In this document: positions 32,921-49,797 of the stretch, in pieces
How the letters are laid out: every line of letters starts with the position of its first letter
How positions within the stretch are numbered: position 1 is the stretch's first letter
Assembly: GCF_016728505.1 (NCBI RefSeq)
Contig: NZ_CP068159.1
Span: 2,356,001 to 2,420,000 of the forward strand
Reading direction: 5' to 3'
DNA: 64,000 nucleotides
Origin: Corynebacterium riegelii
GTDB lineage: Bacteria > Actinomycetota > Actinomycetes > Mycobacteriales > Mycobacteriaceae
Position numbers and translations under genes: made by a program
Notes under the pieces: model-generated
Told to the model about the DNA's origin: nothing
Seen by the model: the letters and a program-made list of their open reading frames with translations, nothing else
Database searches by the model: none

Positions 32921-35014
32921 ATGGCGCACTCAGTAGAGATGCCCGAGCTGGGCGAGTCTGTAACCGAAGGCACGATTACGACCTGGCTGAAGGAAGTCGG
33001 CGACACCGTCGAGGTAGATGAGCCGTTGCTGGAGGTTTCCACCGACAAGGTTGACACGGAAATCCCCTCCCCCGTCGCCGGCGTGATCCTGGAGATCAAG
33101 GCTGAAGAAGACGACACCGTTGAGGTGGGCGACGTGATTGTCATCATCGGCGAGGAGGGTGAAGCAGCTGATGCTTCCTCCGACAAGGCTGAAGAAGCTG
33201 AGGCTGAAGCTGAGGAGGCTCCGGCCGAGGAAGCTTCCGAGGAGAAGGAAGAGGCACCGAAGAAGTCTGGCGGTGCTTCCGGTTCCGCAACCGACGTTGC
33301 TATGCCGGAGCTGGGCGAGTCCGTGACCGAGGGCACGATTACCACCTGGCTGAAGGAAGTCGGCGACACCGTTGAGGTGGACGAGCCGCTGCTGGAGGTC
33401 TCTACCGACAAGGTTGACACCGAGATCCCGTCCCCAGTCGCCGGCACCCTGGTTGAGATCCTGGCGCAGGAGGACGACACCGTTGAGGTGGGCGAGGTCA
33501 TCGCCCGTATTGGTGACGCGAACGCGGCTGCTGAAGAGCCGGCGGACGAGCCGAAGGAAGAGCCGAAGGCTGAGGAGCCGAAGAAGGAAGAGCCGAAGAA
33601 GGAAGAACCGAAGCAGGAGGAGAAGCCTGCAGCTGCTCCGAAGAAGGCTTCTGGCAAGTCCACCACGGTTGATATGCCGGAGCTGGGCGAGTCTGTCACC
33701 GAGGGCACGATTACCACTTGGCTGAAGTCTGTTGGTGACACCGTTGAGGTGGACGAGCCGCTTTTGGAGGTCTCCACCGACAAGGTTGACACCGAGATCC
33801 CCTCCCCGGTCGCCGGCACCATCCTGGAGATCCTGGCTGAGGAGGACGACACCGTTGACGTTGGTCAGGCCATCGTGGTGATTGGTGACGCTGACGCAGC
33901 TGCCGAAGAGCCGGCGGACGAGCCGAAGGAAGAGCCAAAGGCTGAGGAGCCGAAGGAAGAGCCGAAGCAGGAAGAGAAGCCTGCCGAGGAGCCGAAGAAG
34001 GAAGAGCCGAAGGCCGAGGAGTCCAAGGAGTCCGTGAACACCTCCGCCAAGCTGGAGGACCGCGGTGACAAGGTTCCGTACGTCACCCCGCTGGTACGCA
34101 AGCTGGCTGAGAAGCACGGCGTTGACCTGAGCACGGTTGAGGGCACCGGTGTTGGCGGCCGTATCCGTAAGCAGGACGTCTTGGCTGCCGCTGAGGGCGG
34201 TTCCGCTGCTGATGCTTCGGCTGCTGCAAAGGATGAGCCGAAGGGTGCTCGCGCTAACTGGTCCACCAAGTCCGTGGATCCGGCGAAGCAGGAGCTCATC
34301 GGCACCACGCAGAAGGTCAACCGCATCCGCGAGATCACCGCTGCGAAGATGGTCGAGTCCCTGCAGACCACCGCACAGCTCACCCACGTCCAGGAAGTGG
34401 ACGTTACCCGCGTTGCGGAGCTGCGTAAGAAGGTCAAGCCGGCATTCGTTGAGAAGCATGGTGCCAACATCACCTACCTGGCGTTCTTTGTGAAGGCCAC
34501 GGCAGAGGCACTGGTCTCCCACCCGAACGTGAACGCGTCCTTCAACGCGGACACCAAGGAGATCACCTACCACGAGGACGTCAACATCGGCATCGCTGTG
34601 GACACCCCGCAGGGCCTGCTGGTTCCGGTGATTAAGAAGGCACAGGACCTCAACCTGGCTGAGATTGCCAAGGCAATTGCAGACCTGGCTGAGCGCGCAC
34701 GCAACAAGAAGCTGCGTCCGAACGACCTGTCTGGCGCTACCTTCACGGTGACCAACATTGGCTCCGAGGGTGCGCTGCTGGATACCCCGATCCTGACCCC
34801 GCCGCAGGCCGGCATCCTGGGCACCGCCGCGATTGAGAAGCGCCCGGTCATTGTGACCGAGGACGGCATTGATTCCATCGCTATCCGCCAGATGTGCTAC
34901 CTGCCGTTCACCTACGACCACCAGCTGGTTGACGGTGCAGATGCTGGTCGCTTTGTAACCACCATCAAGGACCGCATCGAGGAAGGCGACTTCGAGGCTG
35001 ACCTGGACATCTAA
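32921..35014 (+). CDS. sucB: Dihydrolipoamide acyltransferase E2 with three lipoyl domains
   Basis: E2 of the corynebacterial pyruvate/2-oxoglutarate dehydrogenase supercomplex, 697 residues. Three nearly identical lipoyl domains (about residues 1-80, 125-205 and 248-328) each carry the lipoyl lysine in [15 protein letters not shown]. They are joined by Glu/Lys/Pro-rich linkers. The E3-binding domain ([35 protein letters not shown]) is about 385-427. The catalytic domain ends in [16 protein letters not shown] with the active His and Asp. ATG 32921 has GAGGAGACG upstream. Lipoate would come from the lipB-lipA genes downstream. Confidence 0.95.
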
Positions 35015-46809: not shown

Positions 46810-47565
46810 ATGTCCGAGAGGTACGGCAAGCTTCCCCCGCCTGGTCCGGCGTGGGGTGGCAGCTTGATGGGCACGTCTATCGTTGCCCGTTTGTTGGTTG
46901 AGGTGGGCATGCTGCCTTTGGCGGGCATGTTCGCCGTGATCGCCTGTGCCATCTTGGTTGTCCTTACGGCGGGGTTTGTACGGTACCGCAACCCTGCCTT
47001 CCAACGGACGACGTTGGCGGCGTGGGCTATGTACGCCATGGGCATCCTCGCGTTGGGCGATGCCCTTTCGGGACTCAGCGGCGAGCCTGTTTTCCGGATG
47101 ATCGGCTTCTGGATCGGTGCGCCACTTGCCGTGGTGGTTTATCTAACGCAGCTGCGAGGCTTCCACGGCCCTCCGCAGTTCGCGTGGGGCTTGCCCCTTG
47201 TCGGGCCAATGGTTTCTGCTTCCACTGCGGGTGCACTATCCCGTAACTTCGGGCACTTTTACCAGGTCACCGGCACGGTGCTGTTTTGCATGACTATTTT
47301 CACTGCTGTGCCGCTCTTCGTCTACGTATATTGGTCATGCTGGCGCGGCCGAGTGCCGCTCGAAGGTGCGACATCCGCCACCGCGTGGGTGCCACTTGGC
47401 GTAGCAGGCCAGTCAACGACGGCGATCCAGCTCCTGCACCCGGGAAGCTTTTCCATTTGGTATGGATACGTGGCACTGATCATTGCCATCCCGTTGGCAG
47501 GCTTTGCCATGGTCGTGTTCTACCCGAATGTGGCCCGCTGGGTTGACTACTCCCCTGCGTGGTAG
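46810..47565 (+). CDS. TDT/SLAC1-type transporter, first copy, premature amber stop
   Basis: 251 residues with about eight of the expected membrane helices; starts MSERYGKLPPPGPAWGGSLMGTSIVARLL. It is about 60% identical to the next gene by eye over its length. The frame ends at TAG (47563-47565) where the paralogue has Trp (SPAW-W). The missing tail is still encoded in frame downstream. A TACGGT box 7 bases before the ATG suggests a leaderless mRNA. The family exports or imports small anions such as dicarboxylates or tellurite. Substrate unknown. Confidence 0.85.
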   Translation: MSERYGKLPPPGPAWGGSLMGTSIVARLLVEVGMLPLAGMFAVIACAILVVLTAGFVRYRNPAFQRTTLAAWAMYAMGILALGDALSGLSGEPVFRMIGFWIGAPLAVVVYLTQLRGFHGPPQFAWGLPLVGPMVSASTAGALSRNFGHFYQVTGTVLFCMTIFTAVPLFVYVYWSCWRGRVPLEGATSATAWVPLGVAGQSTTAIQLLHPGSFSIWYGYVALIIAIPLAGFAMVVFYPNVARWVDYSPAW

Positions 47566-47742
47566 GCATGCACGTTTCCCACAGGCACGGTCAGCATGGG
47601 TAGCCACCAGGTTGCTCTCCTCAACGGCTCGCAGTGGCTCGACGTTGTGGCACTGAGCATCCCGGCACTCCTCATTGCGCACTGGGTGATCTGCGCGGCG
47701 CGCTTCGTCTCCTGGACGGTTGGCGAGCGCCAACCTACCTAA
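47566..47742 (+). other. In-frame conserved C-terminal tail beyond the amber stop
   Basis: After the TAG the same frame stays open for 58 codons to a TAA (47740-47742). It reads ACTFPTGTVSMGSHQVALLN, then SQWLDVVALSIPALLIAHW. This closely follows the paralogue's tail (CTFPTGTVSMGGHQVAQVNG...). The lack of decay points to a recent stop mutation or to readthrough. Confidence 0.85.
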
Positions 47743-47802
47743 ACCAGCACACTTAACACCCCAAAGTTTTCCCACACACCCCAAAGGGATTACCATACTG
47801 GC

Positions 47803-48747
47803 GTGACTGACAAGTTCCGCGAACTTCCCCCACCCGGCCCCGCATGGGGCGGCAGCCTCATGGGCACATCTATCGTTGCCCGCCTGCTGGTTGAAGAAGA
47901 GATGATGGTAGCCGCCGGCTGTTTCGCCGCGATCGCGTGCGTCATCCTGATCGTGCTTACCGCAGGGTTTCTTCGCTACCACTTTCCCCGGTTCGGGCAA
48001 ACCACCATGGCTGCGTGGTCGATGTATTTCATCGGCATCCTCGCCTTGGGTGCGGCACTTTCGGGGCTAACCGGCAACGGCGTCTACCGCCTTATCGGCT
48101 TTTGGATCGGCGCGCCGCTGACCATCCTCACCTACACAATCCAGCTGAGGAGGTTCGAGGGCAAACCGCAGTTCACCTGGGGCCTGCCCCTTGTTGGCCC
48201 GATGATTTCCGCGTCTGTGGCTGGTTGGTTGGCTCGTGATTACGGCCAGTTCTACCACCTAGTCGGCACTGTGCTGTTCCTCATGTCAATCCTTACCGCG
48301 GTGCCCACGTTTGCCTACGTCTACTGGGCTGCATGGCACAAGCGTGTGGACCTTACGGGTGCCAACTCCGCCACCGCTTGGGTGCCGCTCGGCGTAGTTG
48401 GCCAGTCCACTACCGCGGTCCAGATCATGTACCCGGGAACGTTCTCAATATGGTACGGCTATGTGGCACTGACGTTGTCCATCCCTCTTGCCATCTGGGC
48501 GATGGTGCAGTTCTACCCCAACGTGGCGCGCTGGGTGGACTACTCGCCTGCCTGGTGGTCGTGCACCTTCCCCACCGGCACGGTCAGCATGGGCGGCCAC
48601 CAAGTAGCCCAGGTCAACGGCTCGCACTGGCTCGACGTGGTTGCACTGAGCATCCCGGCACTCCTCATCCTGCACTGGACGTTGTGCTCCAGCAGATTTC
48701 TCACATGGGCTCTTGCTTCACGACGCCCAAGCGCACCCTCCGAGTAA
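47803..48747 (+). CDS. TDT/SLAC1-type transporter, second copy
   Basis: 314 residues, full length, a tandem paralogue of the preceding gene; about ten membrane helices. Conserved stretches shared by both copies include PPPGPAWGGSLMGTSIVARLLVE, IGFWIGAPL, GLPLVGPM(I/V)SAS and ATAWVPLG. GTG 47803 is preceded by TACCAT 6 bases upstream, so it is probably leaderless. The tail ends LASRRPSAPSE over a dispersed motif copy. Substrate unknown; an anion or dicarboxylate channel is likely from family. Confidence 0.87.
   Translation: MTDKFRELPPPGPAWGGSLMGTSIVARLLVEEEMMVAAGCFAAIACVILIVLTAGFLRYHFPRFGQTTMAAWSMYFIGILALGAALSGLTGNGVYRLIGFWIGAPLTILTYTIQLRRFEGKPQFTWGLPLVGPMISASVAGWLARDYGQFYHLVGTVLFLMSILTAVPTFAYVYWAAWHKRVDLTGANSATAWVPLGVVGQSTTAVQIMYPGTFSIWYGYVALTLSIPLAIWAMVQFYPNVARWVDYSPAWWSCTFPTGTVSMGGHQVAQVNGSHWLDVVALSIPALLILHWTLCSSRFLTWALASRRPSAPSE
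48707..48728 (-). repeat. Dispersed motif copy 8
   Basis: On the minus strand GGGCGTCGTGAAGCAAGAG followed by CCC, in the last codons of the second transporter. The ends GGGC/GCCC are complementary, so a 4-bp stem is possible. Confidence 0.58.
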
Positions 48748-48868: not shown

Positions 48869-49797
48869 ATGAATCGCCGGAAGCCTTTTCTTCCCATTCC
48901 CCGCCAACTAGATTTGCTCACCAGCCGGGGTCTGACGCTCCCCGATAGAGAAGCTGTAGCCAGTTTTTTAATGCAACACAATTATTACCGCTTTTCTGGC
49001 TACATGAGGTACTTCCAGGTTGCTCCTTCACACGGCAATGAAGACTTCGAACCCAATACTCACTGGGGCGACATAGTGGAGATTTACAGTGGAGATTTAC
49101 AGTGGAGATTTACAACCTCGATGTTCAACTCCGTGCCCTGTTGTTTGAAGGCATTCACCTCGCAGAAATATCAGCGAGAACGGCTTTCGCATACAGCGAA
49201 GCGAATATCCATTCCCCTTACGAAGAGTATTTAGCTACTGATGCTTACAAGCGCCCTCCTAACCCAACCATAAAGGCAACCAACGAGCTGATACTCAGCG
49301 AGCTGCACCGCTCACGTGAGCCATATATCGCAAAGTTTCGGAAAGGCTGCACAGACGTAAACCAGTTGTGGACCGACGACGTCCCCGTATGGGCTGCAGT
49401 AGAAACCTTGTCTTTAGGGACACTGTCTAAAGCGATCAGCTTCCGCAATGATGGGAATGCTGTTTATCAAGGAACCTGCAAGGCCCTCGGGGTCGGGCAG
49501 CCATACTTGTCGCCGCAGTTGCGTTCTTTCACGTTCATAAGAAACAAATGTGCCCACTCCTCCCGTCTTTGGAACTGTTTCGTTGTCGATCCTCCTCGGG
49601 TGCCGGAGGGGGTAAAACGGCGCGCAGAAAGGTTGAACGGTTCGTACGCAGGAAACTCAGTGTTTGCTGTGATCGTTGCACTCGATTATTTCCTGTTCAC
49701 CACCAAGCTGCGTGAAGGCTTCTTGAACGAGTATCTACAGTTAGCCAGTACTTCAGAGTTATTTAGCCAGGGTATTTCTCATCCGCGAGCTTCATAA
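48869..49797 (+). pseudogene. Abi_2 family abortive-infection protein, frameshifted by a 13-bp repeat
   Basis: The first frame starts at 48869 with RKPFLPIPRQLDLLTSRGL..., HNYYRFSGYMRYFQ and THWGDIVEIY. It is thrown out of frame at a 13-bp triplet repeat and stops at 49234. The second frame, from 49102, continues EIYNLDVQLRALLFEGIHLAEISARTAFAYSE and carries the HEPN RNase motif R-X4-H in FIRNKCAHSSRLWN. Removing two repeat units (26 bases) joins them into one protein of about 300 residues. AbiD/AbiF-like proteins act in phage defence. The gene is more AT-rich than its neighbours, suggesting transfer. Confidence 0.85.
49076..49114 (+). repeat. Three exact copies of GTGGAGATTTACA inside the Abi_2 gene
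   Basis: Units lie at 49076-49088, 49089-49101 and 49102-49114. One copy (or four) keeps the frame; two or three break it. This is the layout of a slipped-strand switch. Confidence 0.97.

Follow-up and report, generated by a model that had tools for sequence, protein, structure and literature searches.

An in-frame amber codon in one of two tandem SLAC1/TDT channel genes of Corynebacterium riegelii, most probably a recent nonsense mutation

Introduction

HiTehA and plant SLAC1, both of the TDT family (Pfam PF03595), are the closest described counterparts of a tandem pair of channel genes found in Corynebacterium riegelii. According to a published account (PMC11050165), the pore of TehA is formed by the odd-numbered helices and the gating residue Phe262 lies on TM9. 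A second body of work bears on the stop codon that interrupts one member of the pair. Belinky et al. 2021 (PMC7918605) described in-frame stops within bacterial genes that evolve under purifying selection and argued that many of them do not denote pseudogenes.

The present locus shares features with both described systems and departs from each. As in HiTehA and plant SLAC1, both copies of the pair score above the gathering cut-off of the Pfam SLAC1 profile, but copy 1 is truncated ahead of helices 9–10. With the recent nonsense pseudogenes and in-frame stops treated in PMC7918605 it shares a stop lying in an otherwise constrained gene, a condition described there as short-lived, and the worked example given there is likewise a TAG. 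It differs in that the stop is seen here in one genome only, whereas that paper describes a filter of at least two genomes as a guard against sequencing error.

Layout and identity of the tandem pair

The window, by which we mean the whole stretch of 64,000 nucleotides that was analysed, comes from a genome assembled as a single contig of 2,519,232 bp. Two SLAC1/TDT genes lie in tandem on the same strand at 46810–48747, 60 bp apart, with the following features.

46810–47565, + strand: copy 1, readable part, a SLAC1/TDT (TehA-like) channel gene by profile match, from ATG to the in-frame TAG, 251 aa (PF03595, E 2.2e-15)
47563–47565, + strand: amber codon TAG, codon 252 of copy 1, with Trp at this place in each of the 35 aligned relatives
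47566–47742, + strand: tail of copy 1 past the stop, 58 open codons and a TAA (47740–47742), corresponding to helices 9–10
47743–47802, + strand: spacer of 60 bp separating the two copies, shared in its 3′ part with the sister genome
47803–48747, + strand: copy 2, intact paralogue, 314 aa, GTG start (PF03595, E 4.6e-22), matching the single copy of the sister genome

Both copies are assigned by sequence to the SLAC1/TDT (TehA-like) channel family, with PF03595 scores of 79.0 bits for copy 2 and 57.1 bits for the upstream part of copy 1 (cut-off 27.9), and are putative anion channels. A sequence search of the PDB at E 0.1 returned no match. The two copies align without internal gaps, and by this alignment the readable part of copy 1 spans helices 1–8 of the 10 in copy 2. 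Translation and alignment bear out the first-pass annotation, which had reported that copy 1 stops at TAG (47563–47565) where its paralogue has Trp (TGG in copy 2); its further statement that 58 codons stay open past the TAG was confirmed by translating 46810–47742.

An AlphaFold model of copy 2 (seven-sequence input) contains 10 helices, the last two at residues 256–272 and 276–305, in a weak prediction with a mean pLDDT of 61.3 and values under 50 at residues 239–289. When the model was compared with the PDB using Foldseek, 19 of the top 20 hits (ranks 1–18 and 20) were TehA or SLAC-family structures, an assignment that for 9m7s, 9m7r, 9m7w and 4ycr is inferred, their titles carrying no protein name; the best were plant SLAC1 and TehA. 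TM-scores by query length were 0.56–0.68 at ranks 1–18. Copy 2 resembles the TehA/SLAC1 structures in its ten predicted helices, of which copy 1 read to the stop would keep eight, but differs from them in sequence, with 12–16% identity at ranks 1–18 and a single hit at E 0.001 or better. A product ending at residue 251 would be without helices 9 and 10, including the equivalent of the pore-lining gate helix of TehA, and on this model and analogy it would very probably be non-functional.

Distribution of the gene and origin of copy 1

A protein search at E 0.001 matched copy 2 in 148 of 242 Corynebacterium genomes, and a close copy (at least 66% identity, counted from the listing of that search) is present in 59 genomes including its own. 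Among the matches listed, no second close copy appeared in any other of the 242 genomes. Copy 1 is taken to be absent elsewhere on the strength of this protein search, in which, for the rows listed, as many candidates were scored as had been found; the DNA search scored only two candidates per genome. In a family sample of 401 genomes the best match of copy 1 was its own neighbour copy 2 at 70%, all others among the matches listed reaching at most 66%. By DNA, copy 1 is 71% identical to the gene of Corynebacterium sp. HMSC29G08 (G153, the sister genome, which was not among the protein matches listed) as against 72% to copy 2.

The alignments took in 39 of the 59 close-copy genomes, with G142, G135 and the second genes of G067 and G158 as outgroups. 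Eight near-duplicate rows were removed from the 44 before the outgroup-rooted tree was built, and hence also from the counts of 35 relatives and of invariant columns. The position of the stop is occupied by Trp in all 35 aligned relatives, four distant paralogues among them; TAG at codon 252 occurs in none of the 35, nor was it seen in any other genome. Of 30 close copies fetched, eight were flagged for in-frame stops, each within the last five residues. Frame changes were found in two orthologues, those of G173 (L144, 937–1948), in which a segment around residues 212–243 occurs twice, and of G064 (L143, 154–1046), where the assembly is a draft in about 90 contigs and could be at fault. Side-by-side pairs of more distant SLAC1/TDT paralogues, 44–50% identical to copy 2, were observed in G135, G136, G160 and G161, the second paralogue of G161 being a partial match only.

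The sister genome has the same locus with the same flanks and gene order, and its single copy is 94% identical to copy 2. It differs in having no copy 1, with 55 BLAST-unaligned bases at this point as against 971 in the window. A fresh tandem duplication was considered and rejected, as identity is 70% between the two copies (175/251) but 94% between copy 2 and the sister gene. In the outgroup-rooted tree copy 1 branches outside the whole orthologue clade (support 99), a placement to which long-branch attraction may contribute, and forcing it together with copy 2 and the G153 gene cost 8.8 log units, which the AU test counts against this grouping (p 0.029) and the KH and SH tests do not (p 0.063). 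The DNA trees had no outgroup and cannot decide the root. Judged by identity and tree placement, copy 1 is an old paralogue, which would either have been lost by G153 and others or have been acquired separately in the lineage of the window.

Conservation and selection beyond the stop

The first-pass annotation had called the tail of copy 1 perfectly kept and had offered two readings, a very recent mutation or some readthrough. The tail is indeed well kept, but not perfectly so: 40 of its 58 residues are identical to copy 2, next to 175/251 in the upstream part, and among the columns invariant in 31 other family members copy 1 has a different residue at 2 of 24 in the tail and at 10 of 107 upstream. 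The motifs CTFPTGTVSMG and WLDVVALSIPALLI are present in both copies. Taken alone, the tail matches positions 284–330 of the 331 in the PF03595 profile (E 2e-4) with 21.1 bits, which is below the whole-protein cut-off of 27.9.

A codon model was fitted to 10 of the 44 sequences on a topology simplified from the tree and fixed by hand. The converged log-likelihoods were −5985.38 with separate omegas for copy 1, −5985.44 with the tail tied to the upstream part, −5985.62 with one omega for all branches and −6010.36 with a neutral copy 1 tail, neutrality of the tail along the entire copy 1 branch being 25.0 log-likelihood units worse. No relaxed constraint was detected on the copy 1 branch, the single omega lying only 0.24 log units below the separate ones. 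The tail-only PF03595 match and the poor fit of a neutral tail both indicate that the tail is kept more than chance would allow, and the codon model points to purifying selection on it through the long history of copy 1.

Synonymous sites are saturated on the copy 1 branch, whose fitted length ran to the bound or to about 16, and the upstream omega of copy 1 shifts with the length assumed (0.03 at about 16, 0.06 at 7.4 and 0.16 at 3), so that only the bound on neutral time is trustworthy. This bound comes from an age model in which the tail is constrained up to some time and neutral thereafter, the other parameters being held during profiling. The tail is best fitted with a neutral time of 0 and an upper 95% bound of 0.22–0.23 neutral substitutions per codon that is stable across assumed copy 1 branch lengths of 3, 5, 7.4 and 12; a second profile with fixed parameters agreed. 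Counted from the split with the sister lineage, the copy 2 branch measures 1.03–1.14 neutral substitutions per codon, and the bound amounts to 20–22% of it. Of the two readings first offered, recency therefore gains support from the estimate and its bound, while for readthrough no positive evidence emerged. A young stop and a tail still in use predict the same sequence pattern, however, so the selection data alone cannot separate them; both would fit, and youth needs no extra mechanism.

A probable recent nonsense mutation

We consider a real and recent nonsense mutation in copy 1 to be the best explanation and give it a probability of about 0.88. The mutation may be fixed or a strain variant; the stop is known from one genome, and in a single genome of a species fixation, strain polymorphism and sequencing error look alike. 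Copy 1 would have been a functional TehA/SLAC1-type channel paralogue until lately, when the nonsense mutation arose. Ribosomes would end at codon 252, the truncated product would be non-functional and probably degraded, and copy 2 would cover whatever need remains. The good state of the tail would reflect the short time since the mutation, rather than continued reading. Copy 1 would on this best explanation be dispensable and its truncation an ordinary gene-loss event; the other breaks counted for gene loss are those in the orthologues of G173 and G064 and in the Abi_2 gene adjacent to the pair.

Alternative explanations

An assembly or base-calling error at 47564 would account for a lone substitution in an otherwise intact gene, but we think it improbable given the single-contig assembly, the lack of a homopolymer at the stop codon and the outcome of a sister-guided scan of open reading frames (ORFs). 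When ORFs from a stretch of some 98 kb on the sister contig were compared with the window, 49 matched cleanly and 12 were flagged; the alignments of five flagged ORFs were inspected, and Pfam was run on six, with no sign of many base errors in the five. In two of these (VIT1 and an acetyltransferase), which look over-extended, the stop precedes the Pfam domain, and the other three have no Pfam match. Two further flagged ORFs stand out, the Abi_2 gene downstream of the pair, which is clearly broken, and the channel gene of the sister, whose counterpart in this comparison was copy 1.

Partial readthrough of the UAG would give some full-length channel, leaving the gene tuned down and not dead, and the signature of past purifying selection in the tail with no detectable drift would suit it. 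So would the widespread in-frame stops with dN/dS below 1 for which lowered expression was suggested by Belinky et al. 2021 (PMC7918605). We nevertheless consider readthrough very unlikely. The stop is seen in one genome only (0 of 35 aligned relatives), next to the two or more required in that paper, and in-frame stops are said there to persist for short times as a rule. The check for an amber suppressor that the first-pass annotation had put forward, run in silico, went against it: no tRNA with a CUA anticodon is found among 49 tRNAs (49 Rfam matches in the genome, with ARAGORN used to type the stretches around them), and tRNA-Trp is encoded by a single gene with anticodon CCA (ARAGORN). RF1 is encoded, prfA scoring above its cut-off. 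The RNA after the stop folds more weakly than the mean of its shuffles, with z-scores of +0.79 (75 nt) and +1.16 (101 nt) in a comparison that covers pseudoknot-free structures; the equivalent stretch of copy 2 gave +1.43 and +1.40.

Near-cognate misreading at a background level always occurs in principle. A more specific proposal is that copy 1 serves as a low-dose channel, in which the amber codon would throttle a divergent functional paralogue and near-cognate readthrough would yield enough full-length subunit, possibly mixing with copy 2 in trimers; this, too, we hold to be highly doubtful. Our literature search found nothing on readthrough of this channel gene. If readthrough were true, it would make the locus a natural actinobacterial example of stop-codon throttling, but none of the present results favours it over recency.

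Gene conversion from copy 2 could have refreshed the tail after the stop arose, in which case its good state would say nothing on the age of the stop. The longest exact run common to both copies (26 bp) does sit in the tail, and at codons 277–300 third-position identity of copy 1 is 0.67 to copy 2 as against 0.54 to the sister gene. Runs of at least 26 were, however, obtained in 135 of 2000 codon shuffles, and the two copies are not identical at 265, 270 and 271. Where copy 2 and the sister gene disagree, copy 1 sides, from codon 252 onwards, with copy 2 at seven sites, with the sister at three and with neither at four; upstream of codon 252 the corresponding figures are 30, 27 and 31. We rejected gene conversion as the preserver of the tail, the signal in codons 277–300 being suggestive but not significant, and rate its chances as slight.

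A split protein, in which the 251-aa part would work together with a second product of 48 aa initiated at the in-frame ATG of codon 263 (47596), is hardly credible, since Met 263 is an internal residue in 30 of 30 other sequences, so that its presence needs no explanation, and a restart there would begin within predicted helix 9.

The neighbouring Abi_2 gene and other observations

Just downstream of the pair, at 48869–49797 of the window, lies an abortive-infection-like Abi_2 gene (PF07751) that is split into two frames. At the break is a perfect 13-bp tandem repeat (49075–49114) in 3.1 copies, as against one copy in the sister genome, where the gene is not frame-shifted. As 13 is not divisible by three, slippage would change the frame; the repeat may possibly act as an on/off switch or may simply mark a recent break.

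Abi_2 occurs widely in the genus, with matches at E 0.001 in 163 of 242 genomes. Positions compared by eye place it beside the SLAC1/TDT orthologue in no fewer than 11 of the 59 close-copy genomes. In nine of these (G061, G106, G201, G219, G220, G221, G222, G238 and G239) it lies upstream on the same strand, with the end of the match about 400 bp from the channel gene, and the scores of eight resemble one another very closely; in the genome of the window and in the sister genome it lies downstream. The adjacency of Abi_2 and the channel gene may reflect one shared insertion site.

Elsewhere in the window, a 372-bp tandem repeat in 2.8 copies occupies 32939–33975, with short GAAGAGCCGAAG-type repeats around it; it may encode the repeated lipoyl domains of an E2 subunit.

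Significance

As it stands, the finding matters little in itself; read as a recent nonsense mutation, the locus would be a clean case, still young, in which one of two long-standing tandem genes has been switched off.
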